Of a DNA stretch of 64,000 nt, positions 46,344 to 62,824 are shown piece after piece. The position numbers were made by a program, and so were the translations under genes. The notes under the pieces are model-generated. The model worked only from the letters and a program-made list of their open reading frames with translations, searched no databases and was not told the DNA's origin. The DNA is taken from assembly GCA_947465495.1 (NCBI GenBank), contig CANIAS010000006.1, forward strand, positions 1 through 64,000, in the 5' to 3' direction. Within the stretch, counting starts at the first letter, position 1, and each line of letters begins with the position of its first letter. The stretch is from Candidatus Pollutiaquabacter sp. Lineage in GTDB: Bacteria; Bacteroidota; Bacteroidia; AKYH767-A; 2013-40CM-41-45.

Positions 46344-47117
46344 TTAAACAACAGATGCGCCGAATTGTTTCGTCAGCCAGTCACTTAATAGACGATTGAA
46401 CTGATCGGGTTGCTCCATCATCGGAGCGTGACCACATTGGTCGATCCAGTATAAGCTACTGTTAGGCAATAAGCGATTGAATTCCTCGGCAACATCAGGA
46501 GGTGTGACGGTGTCTTGTTTGCCCCATATTAAACATGCCGGCCACTTCATGTCCTGCAAATCTTCGCTCATGTTGTGTCGAATGGCTGATTTTGCAAGTG
46601 AAAGAATTCGAATGAGTTTTCCTTTGTCGTTGACAATCCCATACACTTCATCGACCAGTTCTTTGGTAGCCGTTTGTGGATCGTAGAAGGTGTATTCTAC
46701 TTTGGTCTTGATGTAGTTGTAGTCTTCTCGCTTGGGGAAAGTGCCGCCCATTGCATTTTCGTAAAGCCCGGAGCTTCCGGTGAGGACAATACCTTTTACG
46801 TTTTCAGGGTGACGTTTTACGTAAACGAGTGTCACGTGGCCACCGAGTGAATTGCCAACAAAGATGATATCCTTTAATGCTTTAAAGGTGACGAAGTCGT
46901 AAACAAATTCAGCGAGTGCTTTCACGTTTGTGTTAAGAACCGGAAGTGTGTAGATCGGCATCAGCGGAATAATAACACGGTAGTTGGGTGAGAAGTGATT
47001 GACTACATCCATCCAGTTGCTCAACGCACCAAATAATCCGTGTAAAAGTATCAGCGGTTGTCCGCTTCCTTCTTCTATGTATTGAAAGTCGCCTTCCGAC
47101 TTGATCTCGTATCCCAT
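46344..47117 (-). CDS. Alpha/beta-fold hydrolase
   Basis: The protein of about 257 residues shows the triad of a serine hydrolase: nucleophile Ser in GNSLGGHVTLVYV (about 89-101), Asp in WGKQDTVTPPD (about 200), and His in DQCGHAPMMEQP (about 230). LLHGLFGALSNWMDV supplies the oxyanion-hole region. The substrate is unknown; it may be an esterase or a C-C hydrolase of the MhpC group. The start at 47117 is supported by a perfect -7 box at 47145-47152, which excludes the track's TTG start. It lies between engB and mraZ. Confidence 0.9.
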   Translation of the reverse strand: MGYEIKSEGDFQYIEEGSGQPLILLHGLFGALSNWMDVVNHFSPNYRVIIPLMPIYTLPVLNTNVKALAEFVYDFVTFKALKDIIFVGNSLGGHVTLVYVKRHPENVKGIVLTGSSGLYENAMGGTFPKREDYNYIKTKVEYTFYDPQTATKELVDEVYGIVNDKGKLIRILSLAKSAIRHNMSEDLQDMKWPACLIWGKQDTVTPPDVAEEFNRLLPNSSLYWIDQCGHAPMMEQPDQFNRLLSDWLTKQFGASVV

Positions 47118-47144
47118 ACAGGAGTTTTTCTCAAAATTAAGTAA

Positions 47145-47152
47145 CAAAGGTA
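47145..47152 (-). promoter_or_regulatory. -7 box of the hydrolase-engB unit
   Basis: TACCTTTG on the minus strand fully matches TAnnTTTG, about 30 bp upstream of the ATG at 47117. A TTTAC about 20 bp further up is a weak -33 match. Confidence 0.6.
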
Positions 47153-47250
47153 CGCGACTTTTCTGGCTTGTGTAAAGAAGTGCGCGTACAGCGTGGTAAA
47201 GATGGGTGAATCAACAAGGCCTTAAACAGCCCAAAAACCAAAAGTTTTCA

Positions 47251-47298
47251 ACAAAGTGGGAGAAAGTGGTAGGAAGTGGTAAAAAAAGGATTACTTTA
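47251..47298 (+). promoter_or_regulatory. MraZ-type operator (three 10-bp tandem repeats) and promoter of the dcw cluster
   Basis: acaAAGTGGG, agaAAGTGGT and aggAAGTGGT stand in tandem with an exact 10-bp period (47251-47280), followed by a -7-like TACTTTAG (47292-47299, one mismatch). In E. coli MraZ binds three TGGGN repeats spaced by 5 nt (a 10-bp period) at its own promoter, and in Mollicutes it binds AAAGTG-type repeats. The match in motif, spacing and place is very good. I infer MraZ autoregulation of this cluster. Confidence 0.85.
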
Positions 47299-47320
47299 GC
47301 ACCACTTAAGAAACAGCAGA

Positions 47321-47785
47321 ATGGCGGGTTTTATCGGAGAATTTCCGTGTACAGTGGATGACAAGGGTCGCTTCCTGCTTCCGTCGGGCCTGAAGAAACA
47401 GGTACCGGCGAAAGAGCAGAAGCGTTTTGTGGTCCATCGCGGTTTTGATAAACACCTGGTGATGTACACTCGTAAAGAGTGGGAGCGAATTTCTGCTGAA
47501 GTGAATTCATTAAATCTTTATGTGCGTAAGAACTTGGAGTTCGTGCGCAAATTCAATCGCGGTGCTTCTGATGTTGAGCTTGACGGTACGAATCGTTTGC
47601 TGTTGCCAAAGACGTTGACGGAATATGCCGGAATCAAAAAGGATATCATCTTATTCGCCTTCGGAACCCGGATCGAGATTTGGTCGGAAGAGGAATATCA
47701 GCGCATGATGAAAGATGATGGCGATGGATTTGCCAAGCTGGCTGAAGATGTGATGGGAGGAGCTAAAAAAAATGACGAAGAGTAA
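47321..47785 (+). CDS. mraZ: Transcriptional regulator MraZ
   Basis: MraZ is a DNA-binding repressor (in some species an activator) of the dcw cluster. In 154 residues it has two SpoVT/AbrB-like halves, each with the DxxxR signature: DDKGRFLLPSGLK (about 13-25) and DGTNRLLLPKTL (about 88-99). The first residues GFIGEFPCTVDDKGR fit the family. It overlaps rsmH by 14 bp. Three tandem repeats that look like its own operator lie 40-70 bp upstream. Confidence 0.96.
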   Translation: MAGFIGEFPCTVDDKGRFLLPSGLKKQVPAKEQKRFVVHRGFDKHLVMYTRKEWERISAEVNSLNLYVRKNLEFVRKFNRGASDVELDGTNRLLLPKTLTEYAGIKKDIILFAFGTRIEIWSEEEYQRMMKDDGDGFAKLAEDVMGGAKKNDEE

Positions 47786-48683
47786 TTATCACGATCCGGT
47801 TTTGCTCCGGGAAAGTGTTGATGCACTCGAAATCATAGAGAATGGCGTTTATGTGGACGTCACCATGGGAGGAGGAGGTCATACGCGGGAAATTCTGCGT
47901 CGACTGGGAGTAGAGGGAACGTTGTTTGGTTTCGATCAGGATGAAGAGGCGGGAGCTAATGCTCCCGATGACAAGCGTTTTACCTGGATTCGTCATAATT
48001 ACCGGTACCTGAAGCATTTCATGAGTTTTTACGAAAAGATGCCGGTACATGGAATCCTTGCGGATCTCGGCGTTTCGTCGCATCAGTTTGACATTGCGGA
48101 TCGTGGGTTTTCCATCCGCTTTGATGGACCATTAGACATGCGCATGAATCGTGCTTCGCAGGTATCTGCTTCCACGGTGGTTAATACCTATAACCAGGAA
48201 GAGTTGATGAGGGTTTTTAGGGACTATGCAGAGTTGCGAAATGCACGTGAATTATCGCTGAGAATTGTTGCTGCACGCGCAGAAACGCAGTTCTCGACCA
48301 CCACACAGTTGCGAGAAATAGCGCAGCCCATCGCTGAGCGTGGTAACGAAGCACAATACATGGCTCGCATCTTTCAGGCACTTCGAATTGAAGTGAATGA
48401 TGAGTTGTCAGCCTTGAAAGAAATGTTGCAGCGGGCTGCTGAAGTGTTAGCTCCAGGTGGACGATTGGTAGTGATTTCGTATCACTCATTAGAAGACAGA
48501 CTGGTCAAGAATTTTATTGCTCACGGCAAATTCGAAGGCGAAGCAGAGAAGGATATTTTCGGAAATACAGCAGCTGTTCCGTTGAAAGCCGTAGTTAAGA
48601 AACCCGTGGAGCCCACACACGAAGAAATTGCACGCAACCCGCGTGCCCGCAGTGCAAAAATGAGAATAGCTGAAAAGCGCTAA
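47772..48683 (+). CDS. rsmH: 16S rRNA (cytosine-1402-N4) methyltransferase RsmH
   Basis: RsmH (MraW) methylates C1402 of 16S rRNA in the ribosomal P site. The 303 residues are family length. Motifs: YHDPVLLRESVDAL at the start, the SAM-binding VDVTMGGGGHTREIL (about 29-43), GILADLGVSSHQFD (about 95-108), FRDYAELRNARELS, and the C-terminal VISYHSLEDRLVKNF and RNPRARSAKMRIAEK. The ATG lies within the 3' end of mraZ. Confidence 0.97.
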   Translation: MTKSNYHDPVLLRESVDALEIIENGVYVDVTMGGGGHTREILRRLGVEGTLFGFDQDEEAGANAPDDKRFTWIRHNYRYLKHFMSFYEKMPVHGILADLGVSSHQFDIADRGFSIRFDGPLDMRMNRASQVSASTVVNTYNQEELMRVFRDYAELRNARELSLRIVAARAETQFSTTTQLREIAQPIAERGNEAQYMARIFQALRIEVNDELSALKEMLQRAAEVLAPGGRLVVISYHSLEDRLVKNFIAHGKFEGEAEKDIFGNTAAVPLKAVVKKPVEPTHEEIARNPRARSAKMRIAEKR

Positions 48684-48690
48684 TTACACT

Positions 48691-49125
48691 ATGTCGCAAA
48701 AAAAAGTGAAGGAGTCAGCGGAAAATGAAGTCGTCGATGTGGCGGCAGAGTCAGCCGCTGAGACGCAGCCCAAACGCAGGTCGTCACGACCAGCGCGTGG
48801 TTTCGTGAAATTCATCAATGTGTTCGATTGGTTCGATAAGAATCACTTTGCGAACAACATGCCGTTCATCCTGTTCTTGACCATGCTCGTAATCGGATAT
48901 ATCGCGAACAGTTATAATGCGGAACGCATCATTCGTAACATCGACAAGACGAAGGTGGAACTTAAAGAAAAGAACGCCGAGTTTATTTCTACACGTTCCC
49001 AATTGATGTTTAAAAGTAAGCAGTCAGAAGTGGCTCGTGCCGTTGCTGCTACCGGAGTATTTGAAAGCAAAGAGCCGCCTAAGAAACTGTTCGTTGTGGA
49101 AACAAAAGAAAATAAGCAGGACTAA
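48691..49125 (+). CDS. FtsL-like cell-division protein
   Basis: At the ftsL position of the dcw cluster, this 144-residue protein has a cytoplasmic basic tail, one membrane helix (about 56-76, NNMPFILFLTMLVIGYIA quoted in part) and a short periplasmic coiled coil (IIRNIDKTKVELKEKNAEFIS). That is the FtsL plan, in the Bacteroidota-specific FtsL family. It should assemble with the divisome and PBP3. The assignment rests on layout and position, since FtsL sequences diverge strongly. Confidence 0.88.
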   Translation: MSQKKVKESAENEVVDVAAESAAETQPKRRSSRPARGFVKFINVFDWFDKNHFANNMPFILFLTMLVIGYIANSYNAERIIRNIDKTKVELKEKNAEFISTRSQLMFKSKQSEVARAVAATGVFESKEPPKKLFVVETKENKQD

Positions 49126-49131
49126 TAAAGC

Positions 49132-51237
49132 ATGGAAGCCCGGAAGTCCATTCTCAAACGTATTTACCTTTCATTCTTCGCTATCTGCTTGTTCGGATGT
49201 GCGATTCTTTTCAAGATAGGGTGGATTCAATTTGTGGAGGGCTCTATGTGGAAACAGCGGGCGGATAGTCTGATGCTTGATTATAAAACAATCGAAGCTT
49301 CCCGCGGCAACATCTTTTCGTCCGATGGTAGCTTGTTAGCCACATCAGTTCCAATTTATGATTTACGGATGGATACCCGTGCAGGCGCCATTACCGATGA
49401 GATTTTTAATTCCAAAGTGGATAGCCTGTCAACCGGATTAGCATTGATTTTTAAAGACAAATCGGAACAGGAATACCGTGAAGAGTTATTCACTGCGCGT
49501 ACTAAGAAAGAACGTTACCACCTGATACACCGGGCTGCCAGTTATCCTGAATTGCTTCAGGTAAAACGCCTTCCGATTTTTAACATGGGGCGTTACAAAG
49601 GTGGACTATTAATCGAACAGAGAAGCAAGCGTGAACTTCCGTTTCGTGAATTGGCGCAGCGTACCATAGGTGTTATGCGCGAAGTTAAACCGGTTGGCAT
49701 AGAAGCCGCCTTTAACGATGACCTTAAAGGAATTAGTGGTAAGAGACTCATGCAAAAGATTTCAGGAAATACCTGGAAACCTGTGAATGACAAGGATGAG
49801 ATTGAGCCTAAAGATGGCAATGATATCGTTACTACTATTGATTTGAATATTCAGGACGTAGCGGAGAGTTCATTGGAGGAACATTTGCGATTGCACAATG
49901 CCGATCATGGATGCGCCGTGTTGATGGAAGTTGCTACAGGTGAAATAAAAGCTATTGCTAATTTATCCCGCGAGGTCGACGGTTCCTACATTGAGAAATT
50001 CAATTATGCGATTGCTGAAGCTACAGAGCCTGGCTCGACGTTCAAGCTGGCTTCGATGTTGGCTGTCATCGACGATGGATTGGCGGACACTTCTGATTTT
50101 GTATTCGTAGGCAATGGGACAACGTTCTACTTCGGGGCAAAAATGGAAGACTCGCACCCGCCACACGCTGCTCGTCTTACCGTCAATGACATCTTTGCTC
50201 ATTCATCCAATGTCGGGACTTCGCGGTTGATTTATCAAAACTACGCCAAGCACCCTCAGACATTCATTGATAAACTACACGGTTTCGGACTAGGTGCCAA
50301 ATTAAATCTTCAGATTGAAGGAGAAGGTAAACCTTTGGTAAAAAACGCTAGCGACAAAGACTGGTCTGCGCTTTCGTTGCCCTGGATCTCCATCGGTTAC
50401 GAATCAAAGATTACTCCGCTTCAGACCCTCACTTTTTATAATGCTGTTGCAAACAATGGCCGGATGGTCCGTCCCAGATTCGTAAAAGAAATTCGTCATC
50501 GTGGTCAGTTGGTGGAATCTTTTCCGACAGAAATCATACGTGATTCAATAGCCTCTCAGGCAGCACTTGCCAAAGCGCGTGCCATGATGGAAGGAGTCGT
50601 TGAACATGGTACAGGATCGGTATTGAATAATTCGCCATATAAAGTCGCCGGGAAAACAGGTACTGCGCGAATTAATAAACCCAACTCAGGATATGAAAAA
50701 GGAGGTGTTTCTTATCAAGCTTCATTCGTTGGTTACTTCCCGGCTGATCATCCTGTTTACAGTTGCATTGTCGTTGTTTACGCACCATCTAATAATGTCT
50801 ATTACGGCGGCGCAGTAGCTGCTCCTGTGTTTAAGGATATTGCAGATAAAGTTTATTCTACGCGCATGGATCTCCATGCTGAACCCTTGGAGAAGGATAC
50901 AACGGTGTCAGATCCGCTGCCAATTACCAAAGCAGGTTATCAGCAGGATATGTTGAATGTACTGGACGAAATGTCCATCGCGCATGCCCCGGCAGCAGAT
51001 CAGGCAGCATGGGTCGCTACTTCAGCCGATAAGCAAAGAGTCTCAATGACTCCTCGTAAGTATAAAGATGGTGTTATCCCTAATGTAGTTGGAATGGGAC
51101 TTCGCGATGCCATGTTTGTATTGGAAAATGAAGGACTTCATGTAAAAGTGACGGGTCGTGGATTGGTTACAAAACAATCAATCACTGCGGGCGCCGCTAT
51201 CTATAAAGGACAAACCATTCAATTGGAATTGAACTGA
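49132..51237 (+). CDS. ftsI: Peptidoglycan D,D-transpeptidase FtsI/PBP3-like, with C-terminal PASTA domain
   Basis: This septal transpeptidase crosslinks peptidoglycan. In 701 residues it has one N-terminal membrane helix (about 12-30), a pedestal/dimerisation domain (ASRGNIFSSDGSLLATS), and a transpeptidase domain with the active serine in EPGSTFKLASM (about 304), SSN in FAHSSNVGTSR and the KTGT box in VAGKTGTARIN. The last 60 residues (DGVIPNVVGMGLRDAMFVLENEG quoted in part) form one PASTA domain. Its TGA stop shares one base with the murE ATG. Confidence 0.95.
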   Translation: MEARKSILKRIYLSFFAICLFGCAILFKIGWIQFVEGSMWKQRADSLMLDYKTIEASRGNIFSSDGSLLATSVPIYDLRMDTRAGAITDEIFNSKVDSLSTGLALIFKDKSEQEYREELFTARTKKERYHLIHRAASYPELLQVKRLPIFNMGRYKGGLLIEQRSKRELPFRELAQRTIGVMREVKPVGIEAAFNDDLKGISGKRLMQKISGNTWKPVNDKDEIEPKDGNDIVTTIDLNIQDVAESSLEEHLRLHNADHGCAVLMEVATGEIKAIANLSREVDGSYIEKFNYAIAEATEPGSTFKLASMLAVIDDGLADTSDFVFVGNGTTFYFGAKMEDSHPPHAARLTVNDIFAHSSNVGTSRLIYQNYAKHPQTFIDKLHGFGLGAKLNLQIEGEGKPLVKNASDKDWSALSLPWISIGYESKITPLQTLTFYNAVANNGRMVRPRFVKEIRHRGQLVESFPTEIIRDSIASQAALAKARAMMEGVVEHGTGSVLNNSPYKVAGKTGTARINKPNSGYEKGGVSYQASFVGYFPADHPVYSCIVVVYAPSNNVYYGGAVAAPVFKDIADKVYSTRMDLHAEPLEKDTTVSDPLPITKAGYQQDMLNVLDEMSIAHAPAADQAAWVATSADKQRVSMTPRKYKDGVIPNVVGMGLRDAMFVLENEGLHVKVTGRGLVTKQSITAGAAIYKGQTIQLELN

Positions 51238-52697
51238 TGAAACAACTCAAGGACATCTTGTATAAAGCAGGCATCCTAGAAGTTGCCGGCACTACCGCTA
51301 TCGGAGTGACGGAGCTTTGTTTTGATTCCCGCAAAGTACGACATGGGTCGCTATTTATTGCGGTGCGTGGAACTCAGTCCGACGGGCATCAATTCATTCA
51401 GCAAGTTGTGCAGAGCGGAGCGCTATCCATTGTGTGTGAGACTTTTCCTGAAGTGCTTCATCCAAGTGTGACTTACGTGCGTGTTCAGGATTCTGGAGCA
51501 GCATTGGGTATCATTGCTTCCAATTTTTATGATAATCCTTCTGAGAAGTTGAAGCTGGTGGGTATCACTGGAACGAATGGAAAAACGACTACTGTTACGC
51601 TGCTTTTTCAATTATACCGTCAGTTAGGTTATTCAGCAGGATTGATTTCAACGGTCCGAAATCAGATAAACGATCAGGTCATTCCAAGTACACACACTAC
51701 TCCCGATCCTATCCAATTGAACGCGTTGCTTTCGGCAATGGTTGATGAGGATTGTCAGTTTGCTTTTATGGAAGTAAGTTCCCACGCAGTCGTTCAAAAA
51801 CGAATCGCTGGGGTTCAGTTCGCTGGTGGTGTATTTACCAACATCACTCACGATCACTTGGATTATCACAAGACGTTCGATGAATACTTGAAAGCTAAGA
51901 AAGGATTTTTTGATAGTCTTACGGCTGGAGCATTTGCATTGACCAATATCGACGACAAAAATGGAATGGTCATGCTTCAGAATACCAAAGCGGATAAACA
52001 TACCTACGCAGTTCGTAGTATGGCTGAATTCAAATGTCGGCTGATAGAAAACCACTTTTCAGGATTGCTGTTGAATTTGGATGGTCAGGATGTGCTGTGT
52101 CGGTTAGTTGGCAGTTTTAACGCCTATAACCTGACCGCTGCCTATGCTACAGCTTTGTTGCTCAATGAGGATAAGCTGAATGTACTTACTGCTTTGAGTT
52201 TGCTGGCCCCGGTTGAAGGCAGATTTGATCATGTGACTTCGTCTAAGCAAGTTATTGGAGTAATCGATTACGCGCATACGCCCGATGCTTTGGAGAATGT
52301 ATTAAATACACTTCATGACGTCTCAGCGGGGAATGGCAAGATCATTACCATCGTAGGTTGTGGTGGCGATCGTGATGCGGCAAAACGTCCGGTCATGGCT
52401 CGTATTGCTTGTGAGTTGAGCGACCGCGTGATACTGACCAGCGACAATCCTCGATCCGAAGATCCCTCAGTGATTATTCAACAGATGGAGAAGGGTGTTC
52501 CGCTGAAAGACCAGCGAAAGACGTTATCGATTGTCGATCGTAAAGAAGCCATTAAGATAGCAATCTCCTTGTCGGCTCCGGGAGACATCATTTTAGTGGC
52601 TGGAAAAGGCCATGAGAAATACCAGGAAGTAAAAGGCGTTCGTCAACCATTTGACGATAAAAAAGTGATCGAAGAACTTTTTAAAATGATGGATTGA
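51237..52697 (+). CDS. murE: UDP-MurNAc-L-Ala-D-Glu:meso-diaminopimelate ligase
   Basis: MurE adds the third residue of the peptidoglycan stem peptide. In 486 residues it has the N-terminal UDP-binding domain ([15 protein letters not shown]), the ATP site [15 protein letters not shown] (about 105-119), the carbamylated-Lys region ([20 protein letters not shown] quoted in part), and [10 protein letters not shown] (about 401-410). DNPR is the motif of ligases that choose meso-diaminopimelate rather than lysine, so I infer a DAP-type wall. Confidence 0.96.
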
Positions 52698-52699
52698 TT

Positions 52700-53959
52700 A
52701 TGCTTTATTACTTGTTCCGATACCTCGATCAATACTACAACATTCCGGGAGCCGGAGTGTTTCAGTATATCTCTTTCCGCGCAGCAATGGCTGTCATTAC
52801 TTCGCTGCTTATTTCGTTAGTGTTTGGAAAAAACATTATCAAGATGCTGCATCGGATGCAAGTAGGTGAGACTGTTCGCGATCTTGGTTTGGAAGGGCAG
52901 AAAGAAAAACAAGGCACTCCAACCATGGGTGGTTTTATCATCCTCTCCGCTATTCTTATTCCAACACTGCTCTTTGCTCGACTTCTGAACGTTTACATCA
53001 TCCTGATGCTGGTTACCACTATTTGGCTGGGATTGATTGGGTTTCTGGACGATTACATCAAGGTGTTCAAAAAAGACAAAGAAGGGTTGGCGGGGCGTTT
53101 CAAAGTACTTGGGCAAATTGGCTTGGGTATTATCGTTGGTGTGACGCTTTATTTCAATAAAAATGTTGTCGTAAAAGAACGGAATACGAAAGACCGAATA
53201 ATGGTTGAACATGTGAACTCTAATGTAATTGAAGATATACGTTTGCACGAAGAAGCACTTTATGCTAAAGAAAGTATTAAGTCAACCCGGACAACAATTC
53301 CGTTTGTCAAAAATCACGAGTTTGATTACGCGTTTCTGATCAAGTGGATCGGAGATGGTTATCGTAGCTGGTCCTGGCTCATCTTCATCCCGATGGTCAT
53401 ATTGATTATTACCGCCGTCTCTAATGGCGCCAATATTACCGACGGAATTGATGGACTGGCAACTGGAACTTCTGCGATTGTCGGAGCTACGCTGGGAATA
53501 CTGGCTTACGTTTCCGGTAATACAGTCTTCGCAAATTATCTCAACATCATGTATATCCCATTCTCTGGAGAGTTGGTGATTTTCATGGCGGCCTTTGTTG
53601 GAGCGTGTGTTGGTTTCTTATGGTACAACGCTTACCCTGCGCAAGTCTTCATGGGCGATACAGGTAGTTTGGCGTTAGGAGGCATAATCGCCACGTTCGC
53701 TATCGCGATTCGAAAGGAGCTGCTTATTCCAATTCTCTGTGGAATTTTTTTCGTGGAAAATCTTTCCGTCGTCATGCAAGTGAGTTATTTCAAATACACC
53801 AAGAAGAAGTACGGCGAAGGAAGACGGATTTTTAAAATGTCTCCGTTGCACCATCACTATCAAAAATCAGGATATCATGAATCGAAGATTGTTTCTCGGT
53901 TCTGGATCATAGGGATTTTTCTCGCGATTGTCACCATTGTAACACTCAAACTAAGGTAG
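52700..53959 (+). CDS. mraY: Phospho-MurNAc-pentapeptide translocase
   Basis: MraY transfers phospho-MurNAc-pentapeptide to undecaprenyl phosphate, making lipid I. The protein of about 419 residues is longer than E. coli MraY (360) because of an insert near residues 155-225 ([15 protein letters not shown]...), which is usual in Bacteroidota. Motifs: [10 protein letters not shown], the DD of [37 protein letters not shown] and the [15 protein letters not shown] histidine stretch. The start is the ATG 2 bp after the murE stop; the overlapping TTG in the track is not needed. Confidence 0.96.
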
Positions 53960-53979
53960 CGATCATCTCACCACCAACC

Positions 53980-55332
53980 ATGAACACACACACCACACCA
54001 TATTTTTTAGTAGTACTCGGCGCAGCGGAAAGCGGCGTTGGTGCTGCTGTATTGGCTGTGAAGCAAGGTTTGAAGGTGCTTGTTTCGGATAGCGGAAAAA
54101 TCAAAGAAGAGTACAAGCAGTTGCTGAATCGTTATGCAATTGAGTGGGAAGAAGATGGCCATTCCATCGATCGTGTTTTAAGCGCCACTGAAGTCGTGAA
54201 GAGTCCTGGCATTCCAGAAAAGGCGCCGTTGGTCAAGCAGTTGACGGCAAAAGGCATACCAGTCATCTCTGAAATAGAATTTGCCGGTCGTTATACCAAG
54301 GCTAAGATTGTTGGCATCACTGGCACCAATGGAAAGACAACTACAACATTGTTGACGTATCACATTCTGCAAAAAGCAGGATTGAACGTTGGGTTGGCTG
54401 GTAATGTTGGAAAGAGTTTCGCCTTGCAAGTGGCCGAGAATCACTTTGACTATTACGTGCTCGAACTCAGCAGTTTTCAACTCGACGGATTGCGCGATTT
54501 CAAATGCGACATCGCTATTCTCACCAATATCACCCCGGATCATTTGGACCGTTATGAATATCAATTAGAGAATTACGTGAAATCAAAGTTCCGTATTACG
54601 CGCAATCAAGGTCCCGACGATCACTTCGTGTATTGCGCGGATGATCCTATCACCGGTGAGAATCTACACTTTATCAGCGGCGCTGCACGACAACTTCCAT
54701 TCTCCATCAAATCCCGCCTTACGGATGGAGCCTACTTAGAACATCAAACACTAACAATACACACCAATCAACAATCCTTCACTATGCTTATTCATGAACT
54801 CGCCTTACAAGGCAAACACAACCTTTACAATTCCATGGCTGCTGGTATCGCTGCCCGCGTATTGGACATTCGTAACGAAGTAATTCGCGAAAGTCTCTCC
54901 GATTTTCGGAATGTTGAACACCGCCTTGAAGTAGTAACTACGGTGCACGGCATCGAATTCATTAACGATTCCAAAGCGACCAACGTGAATTCAACCTGGT
55001 ATGCCCTCGAGAGCATGACGCGTCCTGTTGTATTGATTTTGGGTGGCGTTGATAAAGGAAATGACTATTCTACCTTGGTTGACTTGGCCAAAGACAAGAT
55101 CAAAGCAATCGTTTGCATGGGAACGGACAACCGTAAGATTATACGTGCATTCAAAGACGTAGTCGCTGAAATTGTCGAAACCAAATCTGCCGAAGAAGCT
55201 GTTCAAGAATCCTATCGACTTGGCAAAAAAGGTGATGTAGTCTTATTGTCGCCGGCCTGCGCTAGTTTTGACTTGTTTGAAAACTACGAAGACCGCGGCC
55301 GTCAATTTAAGAAAGCGGTTCGTGCACTGTGA
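53980..55332 (+). CDS. murD: UDP-MurNAc-L-alanine:D-glutamate ligase
   Basis: MurD adds D-glutamate to UDP-MurNAc-L-Ala. The 450 residues are family length. The N-terminal Rossmann domain has VLGAAESGVGAAVLA. The ATP site is [17 protein letters not shown] (about 110-126), with LELSSFQLDG, NITPDHLDRYEY and INDSKATNVNST following (the SKATN motif is typical of MurD). The end has VLLSPACASFDLFENYEDRG quoted in part. It sits 20 bp after mraY. Confidence 0.96.
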   Translation: MNTHTTPYFLVVLGAAESGVGAAVLAVKQGLKVLVSDSGKIKEEYKQLLNRYAIEWEEDGHSIDRVLSATEVVKSPGIPEKAPLVKQLTAKGIPVISEIEFAGRYTKAKIVGITGTNGKTTTTLLTYHILQKAGLNVGLAGNVGKSFALQVAENHFDYYVLELSSFQLDGLRDFKCDIAILTNITPDHLDRYEYQLENYVKSKFRITRNQGPDDHFVYCADDPITGENLHFISGAARQLPFSIKSRLTDGAYLEHQTLTIHTNQQSFTMLIHELALQGKHNLYNSMAAGIAARVLDIRNEVIRESLSDFRNVEHRLEVVTTVHGIEFINDSKATNVNSTWYALESMTRPVVLILGGVDKGNDYSTLVDLAKDKIKAIVCMGTDNRKIIRAFKDVVAEIVETKSAEEAVQESYRLGKKGDVVLLSPACASFDLFENYEDRGRQFKKAVRAL

Positions 55333-55356
55333 TTTGTAGTTCCATCCGTATTTAAA

Positions 55357-56532
55357 ATGTACGTTTCCATGCAAGCTACCTGGCTAGATAAATACTTTAA
55401 AGGCGACCGAACGATCTGGAGGATTGTTTTCATGTTGTCGATTTTTTCGTTGCTAGCCGTTTATAGCAGCACGGGTACGTTGGCCTATAAGTATCAGAAG
55501 GGCAACACCGAATATTATCTTTTAAAGCATCTCATGATCCTTGCATTTGGTTTGGTGCTCATGTATGCGGCGCATCGTGTGAAGTATACATTTTATTTGA
55601 AGCTCTCAGCCATTTTACTTTGGGTCACTATTCCCTTATTGGGGTTGACCTTGGTGTTAGGTACGAATTTAAATGAGGCCAGTCGGTGGTTAACATTGCC
55701 GGGTATTAACATCACCTTCCAGACTTCCGACTTTGCCAAATTAGCACTCGTGATCTATGTAGCCAGGGTGTTGTCTAAAAGGCAGGATGAAGAGATGACG
55801 TTCAAGTCGATCTTTTGGCCACTTCTTTTGCCCGTAATGGCAGTCTGTGCTTTAATTCTCCCTGCTAATTTTTCAACGTCAGCGGTACTCTTTATTTCCT
55901 GTTTATTTTTAATGCTAATAGGTAGAGTTAAGGTGAAGCACATTCTGTCTATGTTTGGCATCGGACTCGTGCTTTTCATGTTTTACATTGGCTATTCATT
56001 TGCTACTGGTAACTTAGGTCGAATTAAGACCTGGCAAGCTCGTATCGAGCGCTTCAAAAGTGCGGAAGCGGAAGATAATTATCAGTCGGATCAGGCAAAG
56101 ATTGCTATCGCTAATGGAGGTTTGATTGGGAAGTTTCCAGGCAATAGCACACAGCGCAATTTTTTACCCCACCCATATTCCGATTTTATCTTCGCCATAA
56201 TTCTGGAAGAGTACGGAATGATAGGCGGAGCTCTTATCCTCTTCTTATACATATTGTTGTTTTACCGTGTGATCCGATTTATCCATCATAGCCCGATGGC
56301 ATTCGGTACGCTCTTGTCGGTTGGATGTACATTCATTCTCATCTTTCAGGCAATGATTAATATGGCGGTGGCGGTTGGATTACTTCCGGTCACTGGTCAG
56401 CCGTTGCCTTTGGTCAGCATGGGCGGCTCCTCCATTTGGTTTACCAGTATCGGTATTGGTATTGTGTTGAGTGTTAGTCGTCAAATTGAAAAAGAAAAGA
56501 AAGAAGGAGGAGGCGAACTTGCAGAAGCGTAA
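55357..56532 (+). CDS. ftsW: Septal peptidoglycan glycosyltransferase FtsW (SEDS family)
   Basis: This SEDS polymerase makes septal glycan with PBP3. In 391 residues it has about ten helices and the family motifs VYSSTGTLAY, NEASRWLTLPGINITFQTSDFAKLAL (quoted in part), FPGNSTQRNFLPHPYSDFIFA and EEYGMIGGALILFLY. Near the C-terminus LPVTGQPLPLVSMGGSS is conserved. It ends in a charged tail EKEKKEGGGELAEA, whose coding sequence overlaps the probable murG start. Confidence 0.95.
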   Translation: MYVSMQATWLDKYFKGDRTIWRIVFMLSIFSLLAVYSSTGTLAYKYQKGNTEYYLLKHLMILAFGLVLMYAAHRVKYTFYLKLSAILLWVTIPLLGLTLVLGTNLNEASRWLTLPGINITFQTSDFAKLALVIYVARVLSKRQDEEMTFKSIFWPLLLPVMAVCALILPANFSTSAVLFISCLFLMLIGRVKVKHILSMFGIGLVLFMFYIGYSFATGNLGRIKTWQARIERFKSAEAEDNYQSDQAKIAIANGGLIGKFPGNSTQRNFLPHPYSDFIFAIILEEYGMIGGALILFLYILLFYRVIRFIHHSPMAFGTLLSVGCTFILIFQAMINMAVAVGLLPVTGQPLPLVSMGGSSIWFTSIGIGIVLSVSRQIEKEKKEGGGELAEA

Positions 56533-57628
56533 GTTGAAAGTCATTATAAGTGGTGGCGGTACGGGTGGACACATCTTCCCGGCGGTAGCCATTGCACAGT
56601 CGTTGATGAAAATGAATCCGGAGAATGAAATTCTATTCGTTGGTGCGAATGGGCGAATGGAAATGGAAAAGGTTCCTGCTGCCGGATTTAACATTGTCGG
56701 ACTTAACATTGCAGGCTTTCAACGTCGACTGACGTTTTCCAATGTATTATTACCATTCAAAATAATAGGCAGTTTACTCAAGGCGCGTTCCATTGTTAAG
56801 ACTTTTCGACCGGATGTTGCGGTTGGGGTTGGCGGCTATGCCAGTGGTCCTATGCTATTCGCTGCGACCTGGTTGAAAATTCCATCCTTGATTCAGGAGC
56901 AAAATTCATTTGCAGGTGTGACTAATCGAATTCTGTCTAAACGGGTTAATCGCATTTGTGTCGCCTATGAAGGAATGGAGCAGTATTTTCCCAAAAATAA
57001 AATCCGATTGACTGGGAATCCGGTTCGTGCGGACCTGCAATATTTAAAAACGAAACGCGAAGAAGCGTTCAATTATTTCGGACTTGACCCTGAAAAATCT
57101 GTAGTGCTAGTCATTGGTGGTAGTTTAGGTGCACGAACCATCAACTTGGCCATGGCAGAAGGTCTTGATCGATTCACCAAAGAGGACATACAAATTGTAT
57201 GGCAAACGGGGAAATCCGGTTTTGCCATTGCTAATGAAAAGACCTCCGGAAAGTCGAATCAAGGAGTCCGTGTTTTTGAATTTATCCAACGTATGGATTT
57301 GGCATATGCTGTTGCAGACGTAGTTGTGTCGCGTGCCGGTGCAAGTTCTGTTTCAGAACTCGCGTTAGCTGAGAAAGCTGCTATCCTGGTCCCTTCGCCG
57401 AATGTGGCAGAGGATCATCAGACCAAGAATGCCATGGCACTGGTCCGAAAGGAAGCGGCTTGGTTAGTATCTGACCGTGATGCTGCCTCTCAGTTGGTTG
57501 ACAAAACAATTTCGCTCATAAAGAATCAGCATAGTAAACAACTTCTTTCAAATAAAATTGCGGCCATGGCATTGCCAGGTGCAGCTGGAATTATTGCAGA
57601 AGAAGTATATCAATTGGCAGGATCATGA
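56519..57628 (+). CDS. murG: MurG N-acetylglucosaminyltransferase, probable TTG start
   Basis: MurG adds GlcNAc to lipid I to form lipid II. The protein of about 369 residues is GT28 family: VIISGGGTGGHIFPAVAIA (glycine-rich loop), VGVGGYASGPMLFAA, QEQNSFAGVTNRIL, RLTGNPVRADL, VIGGSLGARTIN, and ADVVVSRAGASSVSELA with the late PSPNVAEDHQTKNA. No ATG is in frame at the 5' end. Candidates are GTG 56471, TTG 56486, TTG 56519 and TTG 56534. TTG 56519 gives MQKRKLKVIISGGG, the normal family start, and overlaps ftsW by 14 bp. The TGA stop overlaps murC (ATGA). Confidence 0.94.
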   Translation: MQKRKLKVIISGGGTGGHIFPAVAIAQSLMKMNPENEILFVGANGRMEMEKVPAAGFNIVGLNIAGFQRRLTFSNVLLPFKIIGSLLKARSIVKTFRPDVAVGVGGYASGPMLFAATWLKIPSLIQEQNSFAGVTNRILSKRVNRICVAYEGMEQYFPKNKIRLTGNPVRADLQYLKTKREEAFNYFGLDPEKSVVLVIGGSLGARTINLAMAEGLDRFTKEDIQIVWQTGKSGFAIANEKTSGKSNQGVRVFEFIQRMDLAYAVADVVVSRAGASSVSELALAEKAAILVPSPNVAEDHQTKNAMALVRKEAAWLVSDRDAASQLVDKTISLIKNQHSKQLLSNKIAAMALPGAAGIIAEEVYQLAGS

Positions 57629-59016
57629 TGAGGCGTACAATCGATTTCAATCAGATCAATTCGGTCTACTTCTTAGGGATCGGCGGAATAGGCATGTCTG
57701 CCATTGCTCGTTTTTTCAAATCCCAAGGCAAAGTAGTCGCAGGGTATGACAAGACGCGTACGCCGTTGACCGATGAATTGACCGCTGAAGGCATCGACGT
57801 ACGTTATGTAGATGACCCAACGACCATACACGAATTTTTCAGTGATCCGTCTAGTACGTTAGTGGTTTTAACACCCGCAATACCCAAAGATCATCAGGAA
57901 TGGGCTCATTTCCTGAAGAACGATTTTCCCATTCTTAAGCGTTCCGAAGTACTGGGAATTATTACTGCTAATTTTTTTACCATCGCTGTGGCTGGAACTC
58001 ATGGTAAAACCACAACATCAACCTTGATAGCGCACTTGTTAAAGGATGCAGGAATTGACTGTACGGCCTTTCTTGGTGGCATTTCAAAAAATTATAAAAC
58101 CAACCTGTTGTTGGGTAGTGCTCAAGATGGCCGACATATTGTTGTTGTAGAGGCCGACGAATACGACCGCTCCTTTCTGACCCTTTTCCCGGATGTGGCC
58201 ATTATTACCTCCATGGATCCCGATCATTTGGATATTTATGGATCGGAAGAGGAAATGAAAGAAACATACCGTCGGTTCGCTGGTCAAGTAAAAACTTCCG
58301 GACAACTCATTTATAAAAAAGGATTGCCCATCGGCCTAGTACCGGCTCCTGCCATCGATTATTCCTTGTACGGACCGGCTGATCAATACGCTTCCGCTAT
58401 TGTGATTCGTGACCATCAATACCGGTTTGATTGGACGAATGGACAGGATACGTATTTTGATTTGACTACTCAACTTCCTGGTCAGCATAATGTAGAGAAC
58501 GCTATTGCGGCTATTGCAGCGGTAAGGGCTGTCGGTTTAACAGAATCGGCCATACGTAAAGGATTAGCTTCGTATACCGGCGTGCGCCGCCGTTTTGATT
58601 ATCAGGTCCGCAGCGCAGAGCACATATATATAGACGACTACGCGCATCACCCAGAGGAGTTGCGTGCCTGCATTGCCTCTGCTCGAGATTTGTACCCCGG
58701 ACGTGCCATTACTGGTATTTTTCAGCCACACTTATTTACACGCACCAGAGATTTTGTAGATGGTTTTGCTAAGAGCCTTTCGATGTTGGATCGGTTGATC
58801 CTGCTGGATATCTATCCGGCTCGCGAATTACCTATTCCTGGAGTAACGTCCAATATGATCTTCGAAAAAGTAAGTTCACCAACCAAGGTGCTGCTTAAAA
58901 AGGAAGATGTAGTCAATTATTTAAGGAACGAGCCACCTGATGTGTTGCTCACCTTAGGCGCAGGTGATATCGACCAGTTGGTTGATCCGATCCGGGAAAT
59001 GATATCAAATACATAA
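57625..59016 (+). CDS. murC: UDP-N-acetylmuramate:L-alanine ligase
   Basis: MurC adds the first L-alanine to UDP-MurNAc. The 463 residues are family length. Motifs: VYFLGIGGIGMSAIARFF (about 14-31), VAGTHGKTTTSTLIAHLL (ATP site, about 118-135), VVEADEYDRSFLTL, TSMDPDHLDIYG, and YIDDYAHHPEELRA (about 334-347). The start overlaps the end of murG by 4 bp; either of two adjacent ATG codons could be used. Confidence 0.96.
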   Translation: MMRRTIDFNQINSVYFLGIGGIGMSAIARFFKSQGKVVAGYDKTRTPLTDELTAEGIDVRYVDDPTTIHEFFSDPSSTLVVLTPAIPKDHQEWAHFLKNDFPILKRSEVLGIITANFFTIAVAGTHGKTTTSTLIAHLLKDAGIDCTAFLGGISKNYKTNLLLGSAQDGRHIVVVEADEYDRSFLTLFPDVAIITSMDPDHLDIYGSEEEMKETYRRFAGQVKTSGQLIYKKGLPIGLVPAPAIDYSLYGPADQYASAIVIRDHQYRFDWTNGQDTYFDLTTQLPGQHNVENAIAAIAAVRAVGLTESAIRKGLASYTGVRRRFDYQVRSAEHIYIDDYAHHPEELRACIASARDLYPGRAITGIFQPHLFTRTRDFVDGFAKSLSMLDRLILLDIYPARELPIPGVTSNMIFEKVSSPTKVLLKKEDVVNYLRNEPPDVLLTLGAGDIDQLVDPIREMISNT

Positions 59017-59018
59017 AC

Positions 59019-59840
59019 ATGAACAAGCTATTCTCAACCATTGATTGGAGAAAGACTGGCAAAACGGCTGGCTGGATGGCGCTCGTTTTGCTGTTTTTTG
59101 TCACGGTAGGCTTTACCGATTCCAGGATGCGTGAATTGCCATGCGCTGGTTTGGAGACCACGGTACTTGATACTTCCGGCCATGATTTCATTGATGCGCA
59201 GGGTATCGGTCAGTTGGTGCTGGATAAATATGGTGAAGTGGTGGGGAAGCCATTGTCTGCAATTAACATGGCTTTGTTGGAAAAAATCATGCTCAACAAC
59301 CCATTCATTGAAAGCGCAAGGGTATTTTCAACCATTGATGGGAAGCTTCATATTGAGGTAGTTCAACGCGATCCAATTGTTCGCGTGATCAACTTTAGGG
59401 ATGAGAGTTTTTACATGGACGGGAACGGAGTTTATATGCCGGTTTCGGAAAATTACACTGCAAGAGTGCCCGTGGCAAACGGGTTTATATTCAATAGGGA
59501 AGCGGAAGGGAATGTTCGAGCTTATTCTGACGAAGAGTTGAACGATACTACGGTGGCTGTATCAAGAGCCTATCAGGTATTTCAAGTGGCGGAGTATATA
59601 CGTCAGCATGAGTTTTGGAATTCACAGATCGAGCAGATCTATATGAATCTTAACGGTGACATGGAATTGATACCACGTGTGGGTGAGCACAAAATTGTAT
59701 TCGGCGATTCCAGGGATCTGAAAATTAAATTCGAAAAGCTCTACCTGTTTTATCAGGAGGGCCTCAATAATACCGGTTGGAATAAATACACCACCATCAA
59801 TCTTAAGTATCAAAACCAGGTAGTCTGCACCAAGAAATGA
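59019..59840 (+). CDS. ftsQ: Cell-division protein FtsQ
   Basis: FtsQ links early and late divisome parts. The 273-residue protein has a short cytoplasmic tail, one membrane helix (about 16-34, TAGWMALVLLFFVTVGF) and a periplasmic POTRA-like region. Landmarks there are FIDAQGIGQLVLDKYGEVVG, NPFIESARVFSTIDGKLHIEV and the QRDPIVRVIN strand (all quoted in part). The position between murC and ftsA and the layout support the name; the sequence is divergent, as usual. Its stop overlaps the ftsA start (ATGA). Confidence 0.92.
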   Translation: MNKLFSTIDWRKTGKTAGWMALVLLFFVTVGFTDSRMRELPCAGLETTVLDTSGHDFIDAQGIGQLVLDKYGEVVGKPLSAINMALLEKIMLNNPFIESARVFSTIDGKLHIEVVQRDPIVRVINFRDESFYMDGNGVYMPVSENYTARVPVANGFIFNREAEGNVRAYSDEELNDTTVAVSRAYQVFQVAEYIRQHEFWNSQIEQIYMNLNGDMELIPRVGEHKIVFGDSRDLKIKFEKLYLFYQEGLNNTGWNKYTTINLKYQNQVVCTKK

Positions 59841-61147
59841 AAACGGAGAACTCACCCATTGTTGTCGGTCTCGACATCGGAACTACCAAAATCTGCACCA
59901 TCGTCGGTCGTAAAAACGAACATGGTAAGATTGACATCCTAGGATATGGCAAGGCTGAATCCCTCGGCGTTAGCCGTGGCGTTGTCACTAACATCGGCCT
60001 AACCATTGACTCTATCAAGAAGTCGATGCAGGAAGCATCCGCTAAATCCGGCGTCAACATCGCTAAAGTGTTTGTTGGTATCGCAGGCCAACACATTAAG
60101 AGCCTTCAACATCATGGCATGGTGACCCGCCGTTCTAGCGACGATGAAATCACACAGGAAAGCATTGATGCAATCGTTGAAGACATGCACAAATTGGCAA
60201 TGCCTCCTGGCGAACAAATCATCACGGTGATTCCTCAGGAGTACATCGTGGATAATGAGAGTGGGATCAAGAATCCGATTGGTATGGCGGGTGTTCGGCT
60301 GGAAGCCAATTGTCATATCATCACTGGCCAGGTTACCGCGGTGAAAAATATTAATCGTTGTGTGCAACAGGCGGGAATGAGTATCGAAGGTCTTTTCCTG
60401 GAGCCACTTGCCTCTGCAGATTCAGTACTTTCTGCCGAAGAAAAAGAAGCAGGCGTATGTTTGGTGGATATCGGTGGAGGTACCACAGATATCGCCATCT
60501 TCCAAGATGGTGTAATCCGCCACACGGCCGTTATTCCGTTCGGTGGAAATGTCATTACCGAAGACATCAAAGAAGGTTGTTCCATCCTGAAGAACCATGC
60601 TGAAAAATTGAAAATGAAGTTCGGTTCGGCATTATCTTCTGCTGAACAGGATAATGAGATTGTGGCCATTCCTGGTGCTCGCGGAAAAGCTCCGCGTGAA
60701 ATCCGTGTGCGTAATTTGTCCTCGATCATCCAGGCAAGAATGGAAGAGATCATCGATTACGTATTTTACGAAATCGTCCATTCTGGATATGAAAAGAAAT
60801 TAATCGACGGTATCGTAATTACGGGCGGTGGCGCACTGCTCAAGCACCTTCCACAGCTGGTGGAGTACCGCACTGGGAAAGATACCCGTATCGGTTATCC
60901 AAATGAACATTTGGCCAAAGGAGCCGAAGAGGTAAAAAGTCCCATGTTCGCAACCGCCGTCGGATTAGTCATTCAAGGATATCAGCATCTTGAACGTCGT
61001 AATGCCATTGTTGCAGGTGAGCAGAATGTGGAAGCCGAAAAAACGTTGACCGAAAAAGGTAAAATAGCACAACCACAAGATGAAACCAGGTGGTTTGACC
61101 ATTTGAAAAAATTCTTCACGGAAGAGGAAGAAGACACCAAACTTTGA
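59837..61147 (+). CDS. ftsA: Cell-division protein FtsA
   Basis: FtsA is an actin-like ATPase that tethers FtsZ to the membrane. In 436 residues it has VVGLDIGTTKICTIVGRKN (phosphate 1 loop, about 8-26), the inserted 1C domain (about 85-165), VDIGGGTTDIAIF (phosphate 2, about 207-219) and DGIVITGGGALLKHLPQLVE (adenosine motif). The C-terminal tail ends WFDHLKKFFTEEEEDTKL, where the helix FDHLKKFF looks like the amphipathic membrane anchor. Confidence 0.96.
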   Translation: MKTENSPIVVGLDIGTTKICTIVGRKNEHGKIDILGYGKAESLGVSRGVVTNIGLTIDSIKKSMQEASAKSGVNIAKVFVGIAGQHIKSLQHHGMVTRRSSDDEITQESIDAIVEDMHKLAMPPGEQIITVIPQEYIVDNESGIKNPIGMAGVRLEANCHIITGQVTAVKNINRCVQQAGMSIEGLFLEPLASADSVLSAEEKEAGVCLVDIGGGTTDIAIFQDGVIRHTAVIPFGGNVITEDIKEGCSILKNHAEKLKMKFGSALSSAEQDNEIVAIPGARGKAPREIRVRNLSSIIQARMEEIIDYVFYEIVHSGYEKKLIDGIVITGGGALLKHLPQLVEYRTGKDTRIGYPNEHLAKGAEEVKSPMFATAVGLVIQGYQHLERRNAIVAGEQNVEAEKTLTEKGKIAQPQDETRWFDHLKKFFTEEEEDTKL

Positions 61148-61182
61148 TTCATAAATAATATCACTGATAAAATACCCACTCC

Positions 61183-62730
61183 ATGGAATTTGATTTGAAT
61201 CGCGAAAAACCCTCCATCATTAAAGTTATTGGTGTAGGCGGCGGCGGCAGCAACGCTGTGAACCACATGTACCATCAAGGAATCAAAGGTGTTGAGTTCG
61301 TCGTGTGTAATACCGACGATCAGGCATTGAGGATTTCTCCTGTTCCGACAAAGATCCAGTTGGGTGAAAGTCTCACGAACGGCCGCGGCGCAGGCTCCAT
61401 TCCGGAAGTTGGCAAGAATGCCGCTATTGAGACCATCGATGAATTGAAAAAGATTCTGTTAGATAACACGCACATGGTGTTCATCACTGCAGGCATGGGC
61501 GGTGGCACAGGCACAGGTGCAGCACCAGTTATCGCACAGGCAGCGCGCGAACTCGGTATTTTGACAGTGGGTATCGTCACAATGCCATTCGATTTTGAAG
61601 GCAAGAAACGTAAACAGCAAGCCGATGAAGGTATCGAAGCGCTGAAAAAAAATGTGGATTCAATTCTCATCATTCGCAACGAACGCCTTCGTGAGATGTT
61701 TGGAAACCTTAAGCTTTCACAAGCATTCTCTCACGCTGATGACGTTTTGACGATCGCCGCCAAAGGCATCGCTGAAATCATTACAGTTACCGGACATATT
61801 AACGTGGATTTTGAAGACGTTAAAACCGCTGTTCAGAATAGTGGACACGCTATCATGGGTTCCGCTACAGCTGAAGGTGATAATCGTTCCATTCGTGCTG
61901 TTGAACAAGCGCTCGCTTCGCCGTTGTTGCACGATAACAATATTAAAGGGGCACGGTATATCCTGATGAATATTTCTAGCGGCGACAAGGAGGTGACCAT
62001 GGATGAAATCGGAGAAATTACCGACTATATCCAGGATCAAGCAGGTTTGACAGCTGATATTATTTGGGGTAATTGCTTTGATGAAACACTGGGTGACCGC
62101 TTGAGTGTTACGATTATCGCTACCGGATTCAAAACCCGCGCCGAACAAGGGCATGAAGCGGTTCAGAAAGAACGTGCCGGTACTAAAGTGTATGTCATGG
62201 ACGAAGAACCAAAGAAGCCGGTTGTAGTAACTCCTGAACCAGTCGTTGAAAATACCTTGCCCGCCACCTCGGAAGAGTTGTTTGAACCCGTACTAATTAC
62301 TCCGATTCAACCAGTTTCCGAGGTTAAACCTGAATTATCAACTCAGGAGGATAATCAATTTACCTTTGAATTCAACATTGCTCCAACGGGTAAGCCAGCC
62401 GAGCAAAAAGAAGAGGATGCTGCCCTGGAATTCGAAATGCGTAAAGATGTTGAAGTTCATGATCTAAACACCGATGAAGCGGACGAGGACGACTTTTTCC
62501 GTAAATCACGCGAACGCCTGGCTCGACTTAAGTCGTTGAATTATCGCCTGGGTGGAAATAATCTTTCTGAATTAGAGCGTGAGCCTGCCTATAAACGTAA
62601 AAACGTAAAATTGGAATCAGTCGCTCATTCAAGTGAGTCAAACATTTCCCGTTATACATTATCTGCGGAAGACGAAAAAAAGGCACACATTCGTTCCAAT
62701 AATTCCTTCTTGCACGATAACGTAGACTAA
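61183..62730 (+). CDS. ftsZ: Cell-division GTPase FtsZ
   Basis: FtsZ polymerises into the Z ring. In 515 residues it has the N-terminal KVIGVGGGGSNAVNHMY, the tubulin motif AGMGGGTGTGAAPVIA (about 103-118), RNERLREMFG, the T7 loop NVDFEDVKTAVQNSGHAIMG, and the core end near residue 325 (VTIIATGF). A linker of about 190 acidic residues follows (PVVVTPEPVVENTLPATSEEL quoted in part). The tail SNNSFLHDNVD replaces the usual C-terminal peptide and is typical of Bacteroidota. It lies 35 bp after ftsA and is followed by a terminator. Confidence 0.97.
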   Translation: MEFDLNREKPSIIKVIGVGGGGSNAVNHMYHQGIKGVEFVVCNTDDQALRISPVPTKIQLGESLTNGRGAGSIPEVGKNAAIETIDELKKILLDNTHMVFITAGMGGGTGTGAAPVIAQAARELGILTVGIVTMPFDFEGKKRKQQADEGIEALKKNVDSILIIRNERLREMFGNLKLSQAFSHADDVLTIAAKGIAEIITVTGHINVDFEDVKTAVQNSGHAIMGSATAEGDNRSIRAVEQALASPLLHDNNIKGARYILMNISSGDKEVTMDEIGEITDYIQDQAGLTADIIWGNCFDETLGDRLSVTIIATGFKTRAEQGHEAVQKERAGTKVYVMDEEPKKPVVVTPEPVVENTLPATSEELFEPVLITPIQPVSEVKPELSTQEDNQFTFEFNIAPTGKPAEQKEEDAALEFEMRKDVEVHDLNTDEADEDDFFRKSRERLARLKSLNYRLGGNNLSELEREPAYKRKNVKLESVAHSSESNISRYTLSAEDEKKAHIRSNNSFLHDNVD

Positions 62731-62796: not shown

Positions 62797-62824
62797 AGCC
62801 CTCCTTCATGGAGGGCTTTTTCAT
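62797..62824 (+). terminator. Terminator of the dcw cluster
   Basis: AGCCCTCC-ttcat-GGAGGGCT is an 8-bp perfect stem followed by five T, 67 bp after the ftsZ stop. Confidence 0.9.

Follow-up and report, generated by a model that had tools for sequence, protein, structure and literature searches.

The closest described counterparts of the locus considered here are the MraZ operators that stand before mraZ in Mollicutes, Burkholderia and E. coli. In Mollicutes, AAAGTG[T/G] repeats are the MraZ site (PMC8475190), which has also been written as (AAAGTGKN3)3 (PMC5282649). MraZ represses its cluster in M. genitalium, where loss of mraZ raised ftsZ (PMC8475190), and it is likewise cited as a repressor in E. 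coli in the same paper, which also reports that MraZ overexpression in Mycoplasma gallisepticum went with raised FtsZ (PMC8475190). Burkholderia has four 7-nt repeats with 3-nt spacers (PMC7761207), and for the dcw operator of Burkholderia cenocepacia the binding of MraZ was shown; the repeats there overlap the transcription start, past the −10 element. E. coli MG1655, scanned in the same way as the loci below, has a GTGG triple at period 10 before mraZ, and in its promoter (TTGACA...TAAACT), which served as a control, the first GTGG follows the −10 by 7 bp. In the literature search, no binding, footprint or expression study of a Bacteroidota MraZ was found, nor any paper joining MraZ to a regulog.

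In the window, by which we mean the whole 64,000-nucleotide stretch that was analysed, three boxes precede mraZ on the forward strand: box 1, AAGTGGG (47254..47260), box 2, AAGTGGT (47264..47270), and box 3, AAGTGGT (47274..47280), all called by pattern and conservation. Their starts at 47254, 47264 and 47274 keep the exact 10-bp period that the first-pass annotation had described, and the last GTGG ends about 41 bp before the mraZ ATG at 47321 (the sequence from 47242 on reads AAGTTTTCAACAAAGTGGGAGAAAGTGGTAGGAAGTGGTAAAAAAAGGATTACTTTAGC). The array resembles the E. coli operator in its GTGG core, 10-bp period, at least three boxes, forward strand and position directly before mraZ, and the Burkholderia cenocepacia operator in its 7-nt repeats and 3-nt spacers before mraZ, although the latter has four repeats. 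It also shares the 7 + 3 unit of the Mollicutes: boxes 1 and 2 here can be read as AAAGTGG, in agreement with the mollicute consensus (PMC5282649, PMC8475190), and box 3 as GAAGTGG. When AAGTGGK-N3-AAGTGGK-N3-AAGTGGK was sought in the window with up to 3 mismatches, one exact site and its own register shift were returned, with 0 expected from dinucleotide shuffles of the window. The bare hexamer is only slightly common (37 copies against 29 expected), so the operator claim rests on the tandem. The triple is unique in the whole 2.72-Mb assembly, and the sole other exact box pair (C5:59921-59936) sits within a long coding frame; no convincing further MraZ target was found in the genome. By sequence, the three boxes are almost certainly an MraZ operator, to which MraZ would bind.

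The candidate binder is encoded by mraZ itself (47321..47785, forward strand), a transcriptional regulator whose product matches PF02381 over two stretches (E = 2.6e-25). Its two MraZ domains carry the conserved D...R...P motifs of the family; the D..K.R...P and D...R...P motifs are invariant among 18 relatives that are 39–88% identical to this MraZ, and the protein matches in sequence the solved MraZ structures 9qlr, 9qlg, 9sx6 and 1n0e. A scan of named genomes with the single MraZ protein gave 8 loci, the closest of them in uncultured Bacteroidetes MAGs. About 200 bp separate mraZ from a divergently oriented alpha/beta-hydrolase gene (window 47117-47321), and a similar hydrolase is found upstream of mraZ in same-family relatives.

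The operator stands directly before the mraZ that heads the dcw cluster, and the genes proposed to be under its control, rsmH to ftsZ, occupy 47772..62730 on the forward strand by annotation. The order after mraZ is rsmH, ftsL-like, PBP, murE, mraY, murD, ftsW, murG, murC, ftsQ-like, ftsA and ftsZ, with the ftsQ-like frame, which has no Pfam match, assigned by position only. No intergenic gap in this 13-gene cluster exceeds 35 bp and several frames overlap. After ftsZ, a terminator-like hairpin (AGCCCTCCTTCATGGAGGGCT) followed by a T-rich tail (TTTTCATTTT) lies at 62797..62817 on the forward strand; the 1-kb stretch at the ftsZ end has 3 terminator-like sites against 1.2 expected in shuffles, and this one has the longest stem. 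The short gaps, the overlapping frames and the hairpin past ftsZ make a single transcript of about 15.5 kb from mraZ to ftsZ plausible, with internal promoters possible. It is plausible, as the first-pass annotation had proposed, that one protein, MraZ, would tune the whole 15-kb cluster. No Rfam match pointed to a conserved structured RNA in the leader or the cluster.

Of 198 genomes taken from the phylum, 186 gave MraZ-family proteins. The upstream regions that were read belong to 30 close loci, from this genome and the rest of its genus, family and order, and to 80 others, hand-picked among the matches listed at one or a few for each genus. After 5 loci with a wrongly assigned start and 1 without a start had been set aside, 104 were left, namely 29 from the same order, 25 from other families of the class and 50 from other classes. 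A GTGG triple at 10-bp period was counted where it scored at least 11 of 12. Such triples stand before mraZ in 24 of the 29 same-order loci, 20 of the 25 from other families of the class and 23 of the 50 from other classes, in a sample that spans many families but in which close relatives are not independent and the large family f21 contributes only two loci. The shuffles gave mean triple counts of 0.00 (order), 0.00 (rest of class) and 0.05 (other classes), and no GTGG triple was seen at periods 6–9 or 11–14, or on the reverse strand, in the 104 upstream regions. These period and strand controls rule out a chance repeat. Among the five same-order loci without a strong triple, one (L019) has GTGC boxes and two (L028, L039) are degenerate or have none. 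The check put forward in the first-pass annotation, an alignment of the mraZ upstream regions of relatives, thus found the repeats in most of the order, and the call of an MraZ operator at the head of the dcw cluster stands, with a predicted operator conserved before mraZ through most of the phylum. In the aligned boxes, conservation is highest in the GTGG core and the spacers vary. Six loci of family f4 (L030-L033, L036 and L037) bear an extra isolated GTGGG box past the −7 element, within the mraZ leader.

Where the array sits relative to the promoter is another matter. The −7 consensus TAnnTTTG has been placed at −12 to −5 in Flavobacterium psychrophilum (PMC9723704) and is also given for Bacteroides (PMC7366714). 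A predicted −7 element of this type (TACTTTAG) lies at 47292..47299 on the forward strand, 12 nt past the last GTGG, so that the interval 47251-47298 described in the first-pass annotation takes in the three boxes and nearly all of this element. Within the order, TAnnTT[TA][GA] follows 24 of 25 arrays, nearly always at 12 nt (null mean 0.6), and in other families of the class it follows 14 of 24 at 10–12 nt (null 1.5); it is found at that place after 0 of 41 arrays in other classes. There, TTGAC-N16-19 promoters that start before box 1 accompany 28 of the 41 arrays, with a −10 that most often ends exactly where box 1 begins, and none of that kind was seen among the arrays of the class. In the order and much of the class, then, the array occupies the −33 region, upstream of the predicted −7 element; arrays in the phylum's other classes are placed downstream of a predicted sigma70-type −10. 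The geometry does not hold throughout the class, since the boxes of family f7 seem to overlap the −7 region.

At the present locus, the implied transcription start would fall near 47304, leaving a leader of about 17 nt, and the boxes would then reach from about −48 to −25 in the mraZ promoter. No TTG or TTTG motif was found at the expected −33 place by reading the window. The arrangement had been likened to that of E. coli, and the MG1655 scan upholds the likeness in repeat unit and period, although not in place: the E. coli boxes run from 7 bp downstream of the −10, whereas those here end 12 bp upstream of the −7, so that the downstream placement of the E. coli and Burkholderia type is not seen. 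The upstream position is a placement variant, not a bar to binding. The Mollicutes differ in another respect, their cluster being much smaller (four genes in M. genitalium).

How bound MraZ would act at such a promoter can be argued from this geometry. We consider it highly probable that the boxes are the operator of MraZ, likely serving the negative autoregulation of mraZ and its cluster, with the element that abuts them (described below) available to a second factor. Multimeric MraZ would place successive DNA-binding units on successive turns of one helix face, and the bound protein would extend from about −48 to −25, a stretch that includes the −33 region for the primary sigma factor of Bacteroidota; it may there interfere with polymerase. 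The most likely outcome would be negative autoregulation of mraZ, with repression carried by the one long transcript through the division and wall genes to ftsZ. Repression is, in our estimate, the probable sign of MraZ action, in keeping with what is cited for E. coli in PMC8475190 and with the rise of ftsZ on loss of mraZ in M. genitalium (PMC8475190). The main rival accepts the boxes as the MraZ site but has the bound protein activate, aiding polymerase at a promoter without a recognisable −33 motif. The tight 12-nt phasing of the array to the −7 element and the missing TTG or TTTG in the window would suit such a role, an array centred near −36 could also activate, and the raised FtsZ of M. 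gallisepticum (as reported in PMC8475190) points the same way; set against the two repressor precedents, activation seems unlikely to us. It is far less probable that the repeats act without MraZ, as promoter DNA in which 10-bp-phased A-tracts bend the helix or contact polymerase. The spacers are indeed A-rich and phased with the helix, yet it is the GTGG core that is kept and the spacers that vary, the core persists in other classes, on the far side of the promoter, and in E. coli, and the triple is specific to mraZ in this genome.

When the upstream regions were aligned on box 1, a conserved block that the first-pass annotation had not mentioned was revealed directly upstream of that box. 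The block (AAGTTTTCAACAAA, 47242..47255, forward strand, called by conservation) begins upstream of 47251-47298 and was missed by those coordinates; it contains the DnaA-box-like 9-mer TTTTCAACA (47245-47253). Its generalised form, TTWTNAACA, is present in 25 of 29 same-order mraZ upstream regions (shuffle mean 0.38, max 3) and in 7 of 25 regions elsewhere in the class (shuffle mean 0.45, max 2), and is near background in other classes. The gap from TTWTNAACA to the first GTGG is mostly 2 nt. Families f10, f13 and f14 keep the boxes without TTWTNAACA, so that the element can be told apart from the MraZ site. Within the order, the block can also be read as an inverted repeat, GTTnnnAAC; this palindrome as the true core of the element is weakened by the flavobacterial sites, which keep TTATYAACA and lose the left half.

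The same motif recurs at other promoters of this genome. The exact 14-mer AAGTTNTNAACAAA has 4 sites, before the mraZ, HU, dnaE and smc genes; with one mismatch, it is not enriched genome-wide (34 sites against 53 for the reversed control). Among six same-family genomes, four have the exact form before mraZ and five have it before HU, with single cases before dnaE and near gyrA/clpC. Paired TTATNAACA, mostly about 20 bp apart, lies before HU in seven genomes and before dnaB in three, with single pairs before dnaA and smc. The genome-wide count of such pairs is only modestly above the control (24 against 18), so the evidence is the set of genes and not the number of sites. That set looks like a chromosome-replication regulon, to judge from the motif's positions, and no description of such a regulon was found in the literature search. 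Both in this order and in flavobacterial families, TTWTNAACA, often as direct pairs about 20 bp apart, was observed before HU, dnaB, dnaE, smc and dnaA genes (L123, L125, L126, L175, L180, L185, L188, L194, L204, L207-L211, L214, L217, L219, L221 and L222). Upstream of dnaA in this genome (L139:13380-13570), two TTWTNAACA 9-mers stand 24 bp apart, a pair common to the closest relative (L146) and not to farther ones. With two sites before dnaA here and in that relative only, DnaA autoregulation through a variant box was rejected as a general feature.

What would bind this second element can be weighed from the same sites. In Bacillus subtilis, DnaA regulates the mraZ-ftsL operon. A fair case can be made that TTWTNAACA (TTTTCAACA/TTATCAACA) is a DnaA site with altered preference that links transcription of the division cluster to replication, although we put its chances at somewhat below even. 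The element resembles the DnaA box (TTATCCACA and its relatives), agreeing with TTWTNCACA at 8 of 9 positions, including the free fifth position, and it fits the mollicute DnaA consensus TT(A/T)TC(C/A)ACA (PMC3322544). The sites that this genome has before replication and chromosome genes (HU, dnaE, smc, dnaA), and the further ones before dnaB, would suit DnaA, and so would the protein itself: DnaA in the motif-carrying families has the recognition helix GGKDHATV or G[DKH]RDHATV, with alanine at the position of E. coli Thr435, and in f6 and f7 it has GGRDHSTV or G[GK]RDHTTV, with serine or threonine there, and these two families have canonical boxes at mraZ. Yet the consensus TTWTNCACA is missed at position 6, where TTTTCAACA has A and not C. 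Family f8 is an exception that breaks the covariation of helix and box, no canonical box is present at the HU promoters of f6 and f7, conservation of the dnaA promoter sites does not extend to distant relatives, the genome-wide excess of pairs is modest, and the carriers of the alanine form may be one lineage. We hold it somewhat more credible that the element serves some other regulator of chromosome genes, or else is an upstream extension contacted by MraZ or polymerase, since position 6 departs from the DnaA consensus at every site of the order, the 2-nt gap to box 1 is fixed, and the block in the order is also an inverted repeat. Contact by MraZ is countered by f10, f13 and f14, whose boxes without the element indicate that MraZ does not need it, and by the motif at HU and dnaB without MraZ boxes; the loss of the left half in flavobacterial sites speaks against the inverted repeat. 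On any of these readings in which the element is a separate site, the second factor would act with MraZ or compete against it.

The canonical boxes of f6 and f7 deserve a word of their own. Several f6/f7 mraZ promoters bear them on the opposite strand, as TGTGGATAA, TGTGGAAAA and TGTGCATAA upstream of mraZ at L048, L063, L064, L069, L070, L072 and L073, and in most f7 loci one lies about 36 bp upstream of MraZ box 1. A reversed canonical DnaA box resembles an MraZ box because it contains GTGG; these boxes are off the 10-bp register, and TGTGCATAA (L072) keeps the DnaA consensus and loses GTGG. A class-wide DnaA regulon with box switching at HU is unsupported in f6 and f7. Upstream of the f7 HU genes (L261-L265), several loci share sequences of type GAAACCCTTT and GGATTTCAG. 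Tandem canonical DnaA boxes gave only 3 pairs as origin markers in 18 genomes.

Taken at its broadest, the dcw promoter of the order and of flavobacterial families could be a two-input switch, with MraZ at the −33 boxes and DnaA beside it coupling division to replication; we advance this only tentatively. With like reserve, we suggest that DnaA there may prefer TTWTNAACA, have alanine at the Thr435 position and govern a regulon of dcw, HU, dnaB, smc, dnaE and dnaA. The literature search found no paper describing a link of that sort between replication initiation and division in Bacteroidota.

The operator itself is of the expected kind, and it is the flipped placement and the abutting replication-gene motif that set it apart as a variant. 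MraZ is among the most widespread bacterial regulators, and the studies that were found cover a handful of species whose promoters are of the ordinary sigma70 type. Across this phylum the same operator is retained, and the side of the promoter on which it lies is switched in the class with the unusual TAnnTTTG promoter. The flip is a natural experiment on the mode of MraZ action, be it occlusion, blocking of the start or activation, and the abutting motif, if it is a DnaA site, would make a connection between the initiation of replication and division in Bacteroidota open to direct test.
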